From Dehalococcoidia bacterium (GTDB lineage Bacteria > Chloroflexota > Dehalococcoidia > Tepidiformales > Tepidiformaceae): DNA of 45,188 bases. The stretch is taken from the NCBI GenBank assembly GCA_020432105.1, contig JAGQGZ010000003.1:1-45188 (forward strand), written 5' to 3'. Of this stretch, positions 25,425-43,541 are shown in pieces. Both the position numbers and the translations under genes were made by a program. Every line of letters begins with the position of its first letter. The stretch's first letter is position 1. The notes under the pieces are model-generated. The model was not told the DNA's origin. It saw only the letters and a program-made list of their open reading frames with translations, and ran no database searches.

Positions 25425-25547
25425 GCGCCGAGTTTCGGGCCCCTGGCATGGGCCGATCGATCCCGAAATGAAGGCCCGAGCGGGGCCCACTTCCCATAAC
25501 CGGTTCCCGCTCGCTACCATGTTGGGCAACACCACTGGGGTGTCCGC

Positions 25548-25657
25548 ACTTATCCAGACGGGGTTGAGGGAACCGGCCCTTTGAGACCCGGGCAACCTGC
25601 CGACCATCGCGGCACAGGTGCCAATTCCGGCCTCCTGCGGGAGAAAGATGAGCGCGA
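25548..25657 (+). promoter_or_regulatory. SAM-I (S-box) riboswitch
   Basis: The core is recognised by its conserved sequence in the right order: CTTATCCAGA at 25549, GAGGGAACCGGCCCTTTGA (25566-25584), CCCGGGCAACC (25587-25597), AGGTGCCAATTCC (25616-25628) and a closing GAGAAAGATGAG. These match the S-box kink-turn, P3 and J4/1-P4 consensus of SAM-I riboswitches. Binding of S-adenosylmethionine should lower expression of the thrC-like/NIL/MoaD genes that begin 169 bases downstream. SAM-I elements usually control methionine, cysteine or SAM metabolism, which bears on the role of this operon. Confidence 0.93.
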
Positions 25658-25825: not shown

Positions 25826-27070
25826 ATGACATTTGCAACCAACCTCCGCTGTCGCGAATGCAGCCGTGACTACCCACTCGAGGCCATCCACGTTTGTGAC
25901 TTCTGCTTCGGTCCGCTGGAAGTGGCCTACGACCACGAGGCGATAGCCCGGACGGTGACCCGCAAGCGCATCGAGTCGGGCCCGGCGAGCCTCTGGCGCT
26001 ACCAGGACTTCCTGCCGGTGGATGCCGAAAACGCGATCGATATCGGCGCGGGTTACACCCCGCTGATCCACGCGAAGAACCTGGGCAAGCTGCTGGGCCT
26101 GCCGAAGCTCTACATCAAGAACGACACCATGAACCCAACGTGGTCGTTCAAGGATCGTGTAGTGGCGGTTGCCAGCAGCCGCGCCCGCGAACTTGGGTAC
26201 GAGAAGCTGGCCTGTGCCAGCACGGGAAACCTGGCCAACAGCGTTTCGGCGCATGCGGCCGCGGCAGGGATGGAGGCCGTGGTCTTCATCCCCCACGACC
26301 TCGAGGCCGGGAAAGTCCTCGGCTCGAGCATCTACGACCCGACACTGGTGAAGGTGCGGGGCAACTACGACGACGTGAACCGCCTTTGCGCTGAGCTCTC
26401 CGGGAGCTACAACTGGGGCTTCGTGAACGTGAACGTGCGCCCCTACTACTCAGAGGGCTCGAAGACGCTGGGGATGGAGGTTGCCGAGCAGCTCGGCTGG
26501 AAGGCCCCGGACCACTGCGTCGTGCCGATTGCCAGCGGTTCGCTGTTCGTGAAGATCCGCAAGGGATTGAACGAACTCGCGAAAGCCGGCCTCATCGAGG
26601 AGCCGAAGACGCGGATGAGTGGTGCCCAAGCCGATGGCTGCTCACCGGTCGCCGTTGCCTGGGAGGAAGGGTCGATGAACTTTCGCCCGCAGCGCCCGAA
26701 CACGATTGCCAAGTCGCTGGCAATCGGTAACCCGGCCGACGGATACTACGGTCTTGTCCAGCTGAAGGAGACAAACGGAGCCTGTGGGAAAGTCACCGAC
26801 GATCAGATTATCGATGGGATGAAACTGCTGGCAGAGTCCGAGGGTATCTTTGCCGAAACCGCCGGTGGGGTGACGATTGCTTCGCTGCGGCAGATGGTCG
26901 AGCGTGGGGATATCCATCCCGACGAGACGACGGTGGCGTTCGTTACCGGCGCAGGTTTCAAGACGGCCGAGGCTGTAGCCCCGCACCTGAACGCACCGCT
27001 TGAGGTGGAGGCGAACCTCGAGAGCTTCGAGGCGGCTTACCATGCCCGGCAGCCCGTGGAGGTTGGATAA
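25826..27070 (+). CDS. thrC: Threonine-synthase-like PLP enzyme with N-terminal zinc ribbon
   Basis: A 414-residue fold-type II PLP enzyme. The N-terminus is a zinc ribbon (CREC, Cys9/12; CDFC, Cys24/27). The PLP Lys is in NPTWSFKDR (Lys109); most threonine synthases have PTGSFKDR or similar. ASTGNLANSVSAHAAAAG binds the phosphate of PLP. Threonine synthase converts O-phosphohomoserine to threonine. The control by a SAM riboswitch and the two following genes (NIL domain, sulfur carrier) make a related reaction, replacement of the phosphate by sulfide to give homocysteine, a serious alternative. The ATG is preceded by TTTGGAGACAC. Confidence 0.9.
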   Translation: MTFATNLRCRECSRDYPLEAIHVCDFCFGPLEVAYDHEAIARTVTRKRIESGPASLWRYQDFLPVDAENAIDIGAGYTPLIHAKNLGKLLGLPKLYIKNDTMNPTWSFKDRVVAVASSRARELGYEKLACASTGNLANSVSAHAAAAGMEAVVFIPHDLEAGKVLGSSIYDPTLVKVRGNYDDVNRLCAELSGSYNWGFVNVNVRPYYSEGSKTLGMEVAEQLGWKAPDHCVVPIASGSLFVKIRKGLNELAKAGLIEEPKTRMSGAQADGCSPVAVAWEEGSMNFRPQRPNTIAKSLAIGNPADGYYGLVQLKETNGACGKVTDDQIIDGMKLLAESEGIFAETAGGVTIASLRQMVERGDIHPDETTVAFVTGAGFKTAEAVAPHLNAPLEVEANLESFEAAYHARQPVEVG

Positions 27071-37003: not shown

Positions 37004-38452
37004 TCAGACTCCCAGGGCCCTGTCCAGCGGAGCCAACTGCTCCGTCGTTGGCTCCGCTCAGCAGAACCATGCTTCGGTCAGACCCGGCACCGGGCGTTGC
37101 GGCCGGGGTGCGACACTCGCCGCTTTGTTCGGTGCCGCTGACGGCATGGGGCCGACCAACTGTCTCACCGCCGCGAAGGTCTCCTCCGCCGGGACCGGGT
37201 GCTCGTCGTGGGTTGAGGCCGCAGCCGCGGTCAGGTCGGCCAGTTGGGCCTGCAGGGCATCGACCCGTGGGTCCGGGTTGTGCCACGTGTAGGTCAGCCC
37301 ATCGGCGTCGAAGCCGTCCAGCAGGCCCTGCGCGGCTGCAATTTCGATCAACGGCGAACCGGGCGGCAGGAGCAGCCGCAGCGCATACTGCACCGGCTGC
37401 ACATGCCGAACGAGGCCGCGGCGTTCGACAAAGTCCAGTGTCTCCACAATATCGTCGAGCGACGTCCATGGGGTAAACGCCATCCATGTCGGCCGAAGGA
37501 AGAGCCCGGCGTCTTCGGCGAGATCGAGTGCGCGCTCAATGTCGTCGGGCGTGTGCCCCTTTTCGAGCATGCCCAGGATTTTCGGGTTGAGAGACTCGAA
37601 GGCAGAGGTCACGAACAGGCAGCCAAGTTCCCGCAACCGGGGGAGAGCGTCCGCGTGCTCGACGAGGTGTTCCACCTTGATGGTCGCGTCAAATGTCAGG
37701 TCCGGGTGGCGGCGATGGAACTCCTCGGCGATAGCGAGCGAGTGCGGCCGCGCGTTGAAGAAGTCAGGATCGCCAAAAGTGATGTGGCCGGCCCCCGCCG
37801 CGACTTGCTGGTCGATGTCGGCGAGCACGACCTCCGGCTGGACGAGCCGCAACCGGCCACCGTAGATCGGCGTGATAGGGCAATGGGTGCAGGTGTGGGC
37901 GCACCCCCTGCTTGCTTCAACGTAACCGGCCGGGACCTCCCTGGACCCGTGGACCAGGCGAGCATACCGGTCGAGCCCCGGGAGGCCCGAACGGTCCGGC
38001 ACCGGGTAACGCTGACGAGGGAATGCGAGTGCAAGTTGGCCTTCGCTCGCCGGCGAATTGGAGGAGGCGACGGCCGCGGCAAGCTCGCAGAGCCGTGGTT
38101 CGTATTCGCCACCGGCCACCGAGTCCGCGAGACCCTCCTCATGGAGTCGTTCGCGGAGCGGCCAGGCGTAGAGACCGTAGAAGGCGATATGCGCTCGGGG
38201 ATTAAGGGCACGCACGCGTCGAGCGAATGCCACGCCCAGGCGCGCCGCCGTGTGCATGGGGACGGAGATGCCGACCATGGCCGCCCGCCTCAGGAGTTCG
38301 ACGTCGGCGTCCTGAGCGGCGAGATCGAGGCATGCGACTTCATGGCCACGCGCGCGCAAGGCTGCTGCGGGCGCGGCCAAGCCTAGCGGCTGGTGCCCCG
38401 ATTCATACGTCGAGACGAGGACAATTAGGGGGCTGGCAGTATCAAGACTCAA
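37004..38452 (-). CDS. CUAEP-tail radical SAM selenoprotein (UGA read as Sec)
   Basis: A 482-residue protein if the UGA at 37060-37058 is decoded. Residues 1-120 resemble a cobalamin-binding Rossmann domain without DxHxxG; residues ~175-400 are a radical SAM barrel with the 4Fe-4S motif RGCAHTCTHCP (Cys184, Cys188, Cys191). In the naive reading it ends AWFC. The next codons give Sec465-Ala-Glu-Pro, the tail of the group annotated CUAEP/CCAEP-tail radical SAM (seleno)proteins, and then 14 residues to a second TGA. A perfect hairpin starts at the UGA. The start is TTG at 38452 without a clear ribosome binding site. The reaction is unknown. Confidence 0.85.
37026..37060 (-). promoter_or_regulatory. 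Bacterial SECIS-like hairpin at the UGA codon
   Basis: Beginning with the A of the UGA, AGCGGAGCCAAC pairs with GTTGGCTCCGCT over 12 perfect base pairs, with the 9-base loop GACGGAGCA. The loop starts with G and contains GG, as bacterial SECIS elements usually do. The loop lies 11 bases after the UGA, closer than the usual spacing of about 16 or more. It would recruit SelB with Sec-tRNA. No T run follows, so a terminator is less likely. Confidence 0.7.
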
Positions 38453-40957: not shown

Positions 40958-41431
40958 CTAGCTCAGCGCTTTGCGCAGGTTCGCCATTTCGATCGCGGTG
41001 GCGGCCGACTCCTCGCCTTTGTGGCCTTCCTTGCCGCCGGCACGTTCCAACGCCTGCTCTGCGTTCTCGGTGGTCAGCACGCCGAAGACGACCGGGACGC
41101 CGGTCAGCAGCGTCACCTCGCGCATGCCATCGGCTGCGCCCCCGGCGACGTATTCGAAGTGCGCGGTCTCTCCGCGGATGACTGCTCCCAGGCAGATCAC
41201 AGCGTCGTAGTGGCCGCTTTCCGCTGCCCAGCGGGCGGCCGCGGTGATTTCGAATGAGCCGGGAACGTGGATAAGGTGGATGCAGTCTTCTTCCACCTCC
41301 CGCTGCCGAAGGGTGTTAATGCAGCCCTCCACCAGCCTGTCCACGACAAAACCGTTCCAGCGGGCGGCAATGACTGCGATGCGGAGCCCGGCGCCCTCGT
41401 GCGAACCTTCGAACTCACGCACGGGAGGCAT
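40958..41431 (-). CDS. ribH: 6,7-dimethyl-8-ribityllumazine synthase
   Basis: A 157-residue lumazine synthase, which condenses the RibD-derived pyrimidine with dihydroxybutanone phosphate. Family hallmarks are LRIAVIAARWNGFVVDRLVEG, LIHVPGSFEITAAARWAAES, VICLGAVIRGETAHFEYVAGGAADG and PVVFGVLTTENAEQALERAGG. The start is the second of two adjacent ATGs (41434, 41431), overlapping the end of ribBA. It is the last gene of ribE-ribBA-ribH. Confidence 0.95.
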   Translation of the reverse strand: MPPVREFEGSHEGAGLRIAVIAARWNGFVVDRLVEGCINTLRQREVEEDCIHLIHVPGSFEITAAARWAAESGHYDAVICLGAVIRGETAHFEYVAGGAADGMREVTLLTGVPVVFGVLTTENAEQALERAGGKEGHKGEESAATAIEMANLRKALS

Positions 41432-42662
41432 CATCCCGGGCCGTGATACTCCCAAGTTCGTCCAGCAGGTGCCCCATGCGGGTTCGCTTCGTCTCGAGGT
41501 AGGAGATGTTGTGGGGATTCGGCGTGACTTCGATCGGGATGCGTTCCACGACCTCCAGTCCGTAGGCTTCGAGCCCCACACGTTTGGCCGGGTTGTTCGT
41601 GATCAGGCGCATCTTCCGGATACCGAGATCGCGAAGGATCTGCATCCCGATGCCATAGTCCCGGCGGTCAGCCGGGAAACCGAGCGCGAGGTTGGCGTCG
41701 ACGGTGTCCATCCCCTGGTCCTGCAGGTCGTAGGCGCGGATCTTGTTGTGAAGCCCGATGCCGCGGCCCTCCTGGCGCATGTAAAGGAAGACGCCACCAG
41801 TTTCCGCGATCATCTTCATCGCAGCGGTCCGCTGTTCACCGCAGTCACAACGCAAGGACCCGAATACGTCCCCGGTCACACACTGGTCGTGGACCCGAAC
41901 GAGGACGGGTTCTTCGGGCATGATCGTGCCCATCACGATGGCCACGTGCTCGTCGGGTTCGGTCCTGCTTCGGTAGGCGCAGATCCGGGCGTCGCCGAAG
42001 GGTGTCGGCAGGTTTGCATCGGCCACGCGTTCGACCAGCGTCTCGGTCGCCAGGCGATGGCGGATCATGTCGGCGGTCGTGAGGATCCGGAGGCCGTGGC
42101 GTCGAGCAAAACGCTTGAGGTCCGGCATCCGCGCCATTGCGCCATCGGCTTTCATGATTTCGCAAATCACCGCTCCCGGATAGAGTCCCGCGAGCTTACA
42201 GAGGTCGACAGAGGCCTCGGTCTGCCCGGCACGGACAAGGACGCCGCCATCGCGGGCGCGGAGCGGAAACATGTGGCCGGGCCGGACGAGATCGATCGGG
42301 CGGGCGTCGGGGTCGATGAGGACCTGGACGGTGCGGGCCCGGTCGCCCGCGGAGATGCCCGTGGAGACGCCGGTCCGGGCCTCAACCGAAACGGTAAACG
42401 GAGTACCGAACTGAGAATCGTTGTCCTGCACCATCATTGGGAGCTGGAGTTCGCGCACGCGGTCCTCGGTGATGGAGGTGCAGATAAGTCCCCGGCCGTA
42501 CTTCGCCATGAAGTTGATGGTGTCGGCGGTGACGAACTGCGCGGGGATGCAGAGGTCTCCTTCGTTCTCCCGGTGCTCATCATCGGTGATGATTACAAAC
42601 TTGCCGCTGCGGAAGTCGTCGATCGCCTCGGGAACGGTTGCCATGATCGGGTCGCGGCTCAT
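41415..42662 (-). CDS. ribBA: Dihydroxybutanone phosphate synthase / GTP cyclohydrolase II
   Basis: A 415-residue bifunctional enzyme. The N-terminal domain (to about residue 205; [30 protein letters not shown]) makes 3,4-dihydroxy-2-butanone 4-phosphate from ribulose 5-phosphate. The C-terminal domain opens the GTP ring: [21 protein letters not shown] holds the three zinc Cys and [18 protein letters not shown] is the catalytic segment. It overlaps ribE by ATGA at the start and ribH at the end. Together these supply both lumazine precursors; ribD is encoded elsewhere in the window. Confidence 0.96.
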
Positions 42663-43255
42663 TTGGGCCCTCCGGGCAGCAGCTCGCGGACGTACTGTTC
42701 GACGTAGCGGGCCATGATGTCGGTTTCGAGGTTGATATTGTCGCCGGGTTCGCGCGTGTGCAGGTTCGTGTTGTCCTGCGTGTACTGGACCAGCGAGACC
42801 GAGAACGACTCCTCGTCCTTGGCGATGATGGTAAGGGAGATGCCGTCGATGCAGATGGGCCCTTTGACGACCATGTGCCGCAGGAGTTCAGGCGGCGCAA
42901 GGAACCGGCCGATGATCGCTTCGCCTTCGGGAGTGAATGAATGCAGTTGGCCCATCCCCTCAACGACACCCCGGACGATATGGCCGCTGAGGCGGTCGTT
43001 GGGGCGGACGGAACGCTCGAGGTTGACGGCGTCTCCCGCTTTGAGTTCCCCGAGGTTCGACCGGCGGTAGGTTTCGGGCATCAGGTTGGCGAAAAAGGTA
43101 TCGCCCTCCAGTTCGGCAACCGTGAGGTCGACGCCATTGATGGCGATCGAGTCGCCGAGATGGGCGTCGGAGGTGACCTCAGGCGCCCGGATAAGGAGCG
43201 TGCCTTCGGCGGACTCCACAACGATGCCGACTTCTTCGACTATTCCTGTGAACAT
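42659..43255 (-). CDS. ribE: Riboflavin synthase
   Basis: A 198-residue alpha-type riboflavin synthase, which dismutates two lumazine molecules into riboflavin. It is built of two similar barrels: [13 protein letters not shown] with [29 protein letters not shown], then [11 protein letters not shown] with [25 protein letters not shown]. The C-terminal [13 protein letters not shown] is the trimer helix. It is the first gene after the FMN riboswitch and has a weak AGGT ribosome binding site, as expected if translation is controlled. Confidence 0.95.
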
Positions 43256-43418
43256 GACCTACTCGCTGCCTCGCAACGACAGCCTTTGGCAGGCATGGAA
43301 GTGATTTCCCGGTGTGTCCATCGATTTCGCCCCTCTCGGTTCGCAATATGAGCCGGGGCGACGAAAGGCGTGCCGCGGACGCGGCGGCGATGGCTGGCGG
43401 GTCCGCCAACCGATCGCT

Positions 43419-43533
43419 GTTCTCTCCCATCCGGACTCTGACCGTCGGCCCCGGAATTCCACCGGATCAGTCCGCCAAAGCGGAGTCGCGGGCTTTACCG
43501 CCGGTGAGGAATTACACCTCGCCCCGAGAACAT
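43419..43533 (-). promoter_or_regulatory. FMN riboswitch (RFN element)
   Basis: On the minus strand the conserved pieces follow in order: GTTCTCGGGGCGAGGTG near 43533, AATTCCTCACCGGCGGTAAAG, GCCCGCGACTCCGC, GATCCGGTGGAATTCC, GGGGCCGACGG and the closing GAGTCCGGATGGGAGAGAA at 43437-43420. These match the RFN consensus. FMN binding should switch off ribE-ribBA-ribH. The ~160 bases between the element and ribE hold GCCGCG/CGCGGC hairpin potential but no terminator with a T run, so control may act on translation. Confidence 0.96.
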
Positions 43534-43541
43534 CTCACCCT

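Follow-up and report, generated by a model that had tools for sequence, protein, structure and literature searches.

A radical SAM gene in a 45,188-nucleotide stretch of Dehalococcoidia DNA (the whole stretch analysed; here, the window) is interrupted close to its end by an in-frame UGA, which raises two questions: is this UGA read as Sec, and what might an enzyme with Sec beside Cys in its tail do? The gene lies on the minus strand at 37004..38452; the radical SAM protein is not encoded on the plus strand at the same coordinates. From a TTG start codon at 38452, the open reading frame (38452→37058) runs for 464 codons to Cys464, where the residues AWFC are followed by the UGA at 37060-37058, then by the codons for AEP and 14 further codons, and finally by a second UGA, the true stop, at 37006-37004. 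With U entered for each TGA, the translation from 38452 to 36950 is ...VPGLTEAWFC-U-AEPTTEQLAPLDRALGV-U, and the extended protein encoded by 37004..38452 has 482 residues, Sec included. The tail coding segment, C-U-AEPTTEQLAPLDRALGV, occupies 37007..37063 (minus strand), as delimited by the translation and by conserved columns, and the tail from the UGA onward is lost in a standard gene call. A first-pass annotation, made from the letters of the window, had described this arrangement. Its coordinates proved exact, the strand that it left unstated is minus, and in-frame translation bears out both the order of AWFC, UGA, and AEP with 14 codons to follow and the 18 residues that a standard caller was said to drop.

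The extended protein belongs, as far as sequence can establish it, to a family that already has a name. It matches the NCBIfam model NF040546 ("CUAEP/CCAEP-tail radical SAM (seleno)protein") with 591.2 bits (cut-off, 500) over profile positions 1-467 of 468, and the C-terminal C(U/C)AEP motif of this family is present in frame as C-UGA-AEP. Alongside the translation and this match, the gene is defined by Pfam matches to PF04055 (Radical_SAM; 52.7 bits, cut-off 29.5) and to PF02310, an N-terminal B12-binding-like domain (34.9 bits). The CX3CX2C motif of the SAM-binding [4Fe-4S] cluster (Cys184, Cys188, and Cys191; 37880..37903, minus strand) is invariant in 66 homologues and is common to ArsL. 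Because the canonical DxHxxG motif occurs in only 1 of these 66 homologues, use of cobalamin by the enzyme appears doubtful; some cobalamin-dependent radical SAM members bind cobalamin without DxHxxG. The annotation group with a CUAEP or CCAEP tail, which had been mentioned in the first reading of the window, is real: it is NF040546, and its name is also used in public records (Thermomicrobium roseum). Since the family is already modelled and named in NCBIfam and the recoding itself is already curated there, the window gene adds a member to an established group. No open-access paper naming the family emerged from literature searches on CUAEP, CCAEP, and NF040546; two Haft selenoprotein papers outside this search could describe it. 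Novel here is the functional context, namely, the link to a ligase and the correspondence with the ArsL tail, which are undescribed in the open-access literature searched.

For comparison of the tails, 80 related loci from bacterial genomes and one from a relative's genome were collected and added to the window, which gave 81 readable tails; one further tail is interrupted by Ns. Every one of the 81, that of the window among them, has C/U-C/U-(A/S)-E-P at the same position, in the form of CUAEP (56 tails), CCAEP (21 tails), CUSEP (2 tails), or UCAEP (2 tails). Homologues without an AEP tail, which the first-pass annotation had named as evidence against its own reading, are thus not seen among the readable tails, where the only departure is SEP in two. 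Across 66 aligned proteins, the two Cys/Sec columns, together with E460, W462, E467, and P468, are invariant. The 21 CCAEP loci have a Cys codon at the position of the UGA, and at least 12 Sec/Cys state changes are required on a tree that was built without the tail.

A few variants deserve mention in their own right. In the two UCAEP members, from Anaerolineae/Chloroflexi (L021:9995-11389 and L057:1305-2699), Sec comes first and Cys second, and the sequence of the downstream hairpin is unchanged; this suggests that the two positions of the pair are chemically interchangeable. The CUSEP variants, with Ser for Ala, are found at L059:6433-7833 and L062:9986-11407. On the T. roseum plasmid NC_011961.1 (L131:5935-7371), the public record names a CUAEP/CCAEP-tail radical SAM protein and ends it at the UGA, beyond which the frame continues with AEPLEDPSGPV.

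The Sec machinery was sought in the window's genome, which is 81% complete and consists of 399 contigs. Absence of selA, selB, and selC had been put forward at the outset as a sign against Sec, and the genome gives the opposite result: it holds selA (516.6 bits), selB (308 bits for the main part, 329 bits with a neighbouring stretch), tRNA-Sec (selC; 66.8 bits, with anticodon TCA according to ARAGORN), and selD (360 bits, with an in-frame TGA). The TGA in selD (L099; G000:C35:3443-4378) is near the start of the gene, in the context CGG-U-ASK, and makes selD a further probable selenoprotein gene. In a set of 50 host genomes, 28 of the 29 with a Sec tail have a selA match versus 13 of the 21 with a Cys tail (p = 0.0025), and the sole Sec-tail host without a selA match is a MAG.

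A hairpin that probably serves as a bacterial SECIS element follows the UGA. Energy folding of single downstream segments was indecisive (mean z, -0.68 for Sec rows and +0.35 for Cys rows), so covariation was used instead. In a scan of 5-bp helices, pairing exceeds that of column shuffles most strongly for the helix at columns 19-23/31-35 (numbered from the Cys codon), which is paired in 85% of Sec rows and 51% of Cys rows. When the rows are thinned at 80% identity, at least 5 of the 6 pairs are retained in 39/46 Sec rows versus 4/18 Cys rows (p = 4e-6, after thinning). The corresponding element of the window, the probable SECIS hairpin 5'-CGGAGC-AGUUG-GCUCCG-3' (37028..37044, minus strand), has its stem 13 nt and its loop 19 nt from the UGA. 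Compensatory change is visible in the protein too, with Glu-Ala accompanying GGAGC/GCUCC and Asp-Val accompanying GGACC/GGUCC, and the loop is small, AG(U/G)U. The small G-bearing loop and the 19-nt distance from UGA to loop are in keeping with known bacterial SECIS elements. The minimum-energy fold in the window is a longer competing helix, in which AGCGGAGCCAAC pairs with GUUGGCUCCGCU.

These data bear on the simplest alternative, that the UGA is an ordinary stop and that the AEP codons beyond it are there by chance. The standard gene call and the public T. roseum record both end the gene at the UGA, as this alternative would have it, whereas conservation of the tail across many phyla, the homologues with a Cys codon, the covariation of the SECIS hairpin, and the Sec machinery in the genome all speak against it. 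We have rejected it as exceedingly improbable. On sequence grounds, recoding of the UGA at 37058..37060 (minus strand) to Sec465 is all but settled; it is indicated by the alignment of UGA with UGA or Cys codons in homologues and by the selA, selB, selC, and selD genes of the genome. The codon would be read by SelB and tRNA-Sec, guided by the hairpin just downstream, and the sequence strongly supports this step.

With the UGA taken as Sec, the gene neighbourhood offers the best clue to what the enzyme may do. Clustering of neighbouring open reading frames over the homologue loci revealed four recurrent partners: (i) an ATP-grasp enzyme with an L-amino-acid-ligase C-terminal domain (ATP-grasp_4 plus LAL_C2; 41 loci), (ii) the Fe(2+)-trafficking protein YggX (25 loci), (iii) an NfuA-like Fe-S carrier (22 loci), and (iv) DUF169 (8 loci). 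In the window's genome, the ligase is located away from the radical SAM gene, on contig C388, where it adjoins an NfuA-like gene. Near these two genes is also an FGE-sulfatase/EgtB-SenA-like gene (L136:9616-10494; G000:C388). In 99 related genomes, the ligase was found in 8/8 carriers of the radical SAM gene versus 1/91 others (p = 5e-11, uncorrected for genome relatedness), where the carriers include one genome (G018) that has only a fragment of the radical SAM tail, on the same contig as the ligase. Of 29 further carriers in various phyla, most of them picked for having no ligase beside the radical SAM gene, 25 gave a ligase match (24 above 230 bits and one at 154 bits). The ligase thus co-occurs almost strictly with the CUAEP radical SAM gene, a pattern suggestive of a small-molecule pathway. 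The partner ligase also occurs in one related genome (G092:C116:11016-12242) in which no CUAEP radical SAM gene is recognisable.

A functional tie to the neighbours within the window (citramalate synthase, an MBL-fold protein, and riboflavin genes) was considered and rejected, as none of them recurs among the conserved neighbours. The riboflavin genes ribE, ribBA, and ribH follow an FMN riboswitch (40958-43535, minus strand). A SAM riboswitch (RF00162, 73 bits; 25547-25654, plus strand) precedes a threonine synthase gene (25826-27070, plus strand) rather than a methionine or SAM gene.

Other neighbours admit a different emphasis: NfuA, YggX, and aconitase could be signs of stress or iron-sulfur biology rather than of a natural product. 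On this basis the tail cysteines might bind an auxiliary Fe-S cluster or some other metal, or might serve to repair iron-sulfur enzymes such as aconitase, and genes for NfuA-like proteins, YggX, and aconitase do adjoin many homologues. We regard these roles as quite improbable: more than two conserved extra ligands would be needed for a cluster, but C278 (94%) is the sole further cysteine close to invariance, and aconitase matched just 9 of 119 other neighbour proteins, a pattern that could reflect inherited gene order.

Beyond its own family, the extended protein scores next best with ArsL (NF040542, RCCLKC-tail radical SAM; 289.5 bits over residues 10-403, cut-off 450), the closest characterised family, whose enzyme forms a C-As bond; the sequence similarity shows kinship with it. 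In arsinothricin biosynthesis, ArsL has been proposed to transfer ACP to As(III) (PMC8552651), and a passage of PMC12159101 that cites JACS 2024 146:21214 states that ArsL catalyses this transfer. In an alignment of three ArsL-type plasmid proteins with 25 members of the CUAEP family, the two groups had no cysteines in common beyond C184, C188, C191, and the C464-C/U465 pair. The alignment puts this pair on the CC of RCCLKC, across a linker that is about 50 residues longer in the CUAEP family; the correspondence rests on the aligner and the motif, not on continuous similarity.

Should the gene then be called arsL? A straight assignment was rejected, since the score is below the 450-bit cut-off and neither RCCLKC nor an ars cluster is present. 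Around the homologues, probes from the ArsL clusters found no relatives of arsQ, arsN1, or arsR; the only matches were ArsB relatives next to three Thermogemmatispora loci and weak methyltransferase hits at four loci. The ArsL-type plasmid clusters of Alicyclobacillus and Priestia hold an ATP-grasp gene, whose product has only 25% identity with the partner ligase. The enzyme could still act on arsenic, as a selenoprotein form of ArsL whose product, an ACP-arsenical, the ligase would turn into an arsenical dipeptide. ArsL is, after all, the closest other family and shares the tail cysteines, and there may be a precedent for a (seleno)radical SAM enzyme that acts on arsenic in TIGR04167, which we take to be ArsS. 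TIGR04167 is a radical SAM family listed among prokaryotic selenoproteins (PMC13188914). True arsL genes, however, sit in ars clusters, whereas arsQ, arsN1, and arsR are not among the neighbours here, and with a score short of the ArsL cut-off as well, we consider a dedicated arsenic enzyme unlikely.

The Cys-Sec pair itself also invites a purely redox interpretation, in which the tail is a mobile arm that cycles between selenenylsulfide and selenol and either reduces a substrate or rescues the enzyme, without binding a metalloid. Mammalian thioredoxin reductase, with its C-terminal Cys-Sec, is a parallel for such an arm. Adjacent Cys and Sec near a flexible C terminus, the swapped order of C and U in L021 and L057, and the oxidative-damage-linked neighbours YggX and NfuA would all agree with it, but no reductase partner gene recurs among the neighbours, and the same CC pair is found in ArsL, the substrate of which is arsenite (PMC8552651). 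We therefore judge a redox arm to be somewhat unlikely.

Our preferred reading, to which we assign a probability of roughly 0.4, is that the enzyme works like ArsL and uses its Cys-Sec tail to hold a substrate with a soft element, which is converted to an unusual amino acid and then joined into a peptide by the ligase. The ArsL-like mode of action is inferred. The tail would fold back so that a soft thiophilic atom, that of arsenite or some other trivalent metalloid or of a different soft element, is held close to the [4Fe-4S]/SAM site. A radical derived from SAM (possibly, as for ArsL, 3-amino-3-carboxypropyl) would then be joined to the held atom, and the partner ATP-grasp enzyme (C388), an L-amino-acid ligase, would link the resulting unusual amino acid to a second one. 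For the neighbours YggX and NfuA-like protein, the probable role is to deliver or repair the iron-sulfur cluster. No ars cluster accompanies the CUAEP gene, so the substrate may or may not be arsenite. The score below the ArsL cut-off, the lack of arsQ, arsN1, and arsR relatives, the 25% ligase identity, the NfuA, YggX, and aconitase neighbours, and the only moderate model confidence of the tail all count against this reading. In a broader and more speculative form, which we would place on the unlikely side, the CUAEP enzyme and the ligase may constitute an unrecognised pathway, present in many phyla, in which the Sec-bearing tail holds a soft element (not necessarily arsenic) for radical formation of a carbon-element bond; a new amino acid containing the element would result and be made into a dipeptide.

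Sec beside Cys in a conserved radical SAM tail would be unusual, in that it would bring selenium next to SAM radical chemistry. The CUAEP family is widespread and has been curated by name only; it now has a near-obligate partner, which makes its function directly testable with two genes, a defined tail, and a related enzyme, ArsL, of known chemistry. Expression of a selenoprotein can be avoided by use of the Cys-only homologues of Nonomuraea candida and Thermogemmatispora. The T. roseum public record, which stops at the UGA, illustrates how functional tails are lost in gene calls.

Comparison with known systems places the protein at several distances. A sequence search for a solved structure of ArsL or of the CUAEP family returned none, the matches being only AprD4 (6fd2) and 9ccb. 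A confident AlphaFold2 model of the CUAEP protein (pLDDT, 91.9; pTM, 0.92), in which the tail blocks reach 86 and 73 (moderate confidence), was ranked by Foldseek closest to AprD4, OxsB, MgmA, and TsrM. The predicted overall fold is that of the cobalamin-fold radical SAM enzymes AprD4, OxsB, and TsrM (Foldseek E values, 4e-18 to 1e-14; TM-score up to 0.65 by query length), from which the protein differs by its 15-20% identity and by the near absence of DxHxxG (1/66 CUAEP homologues). TIGR04167 (ArsS type) resembles it as a radical SAM family listed for prokaryotic selenoproteins, and is absent from the profile matches of the extended protein up to E = 10. With NF040546 it agrees in the whole protein and in the tail, and no defining feature differs; the model assigns no function. 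Compared with ArsL, it has a longer linker, an AEP tail in place of RCCLKC, Sec, and no ars cluster, whereas homology over residues 10-403, the CX3CX2C motif, a C-terminal Cys-Cys that aligns with Cys-Sec, and the ATP-grasp gene of some ArsL clusters are features that link the two.
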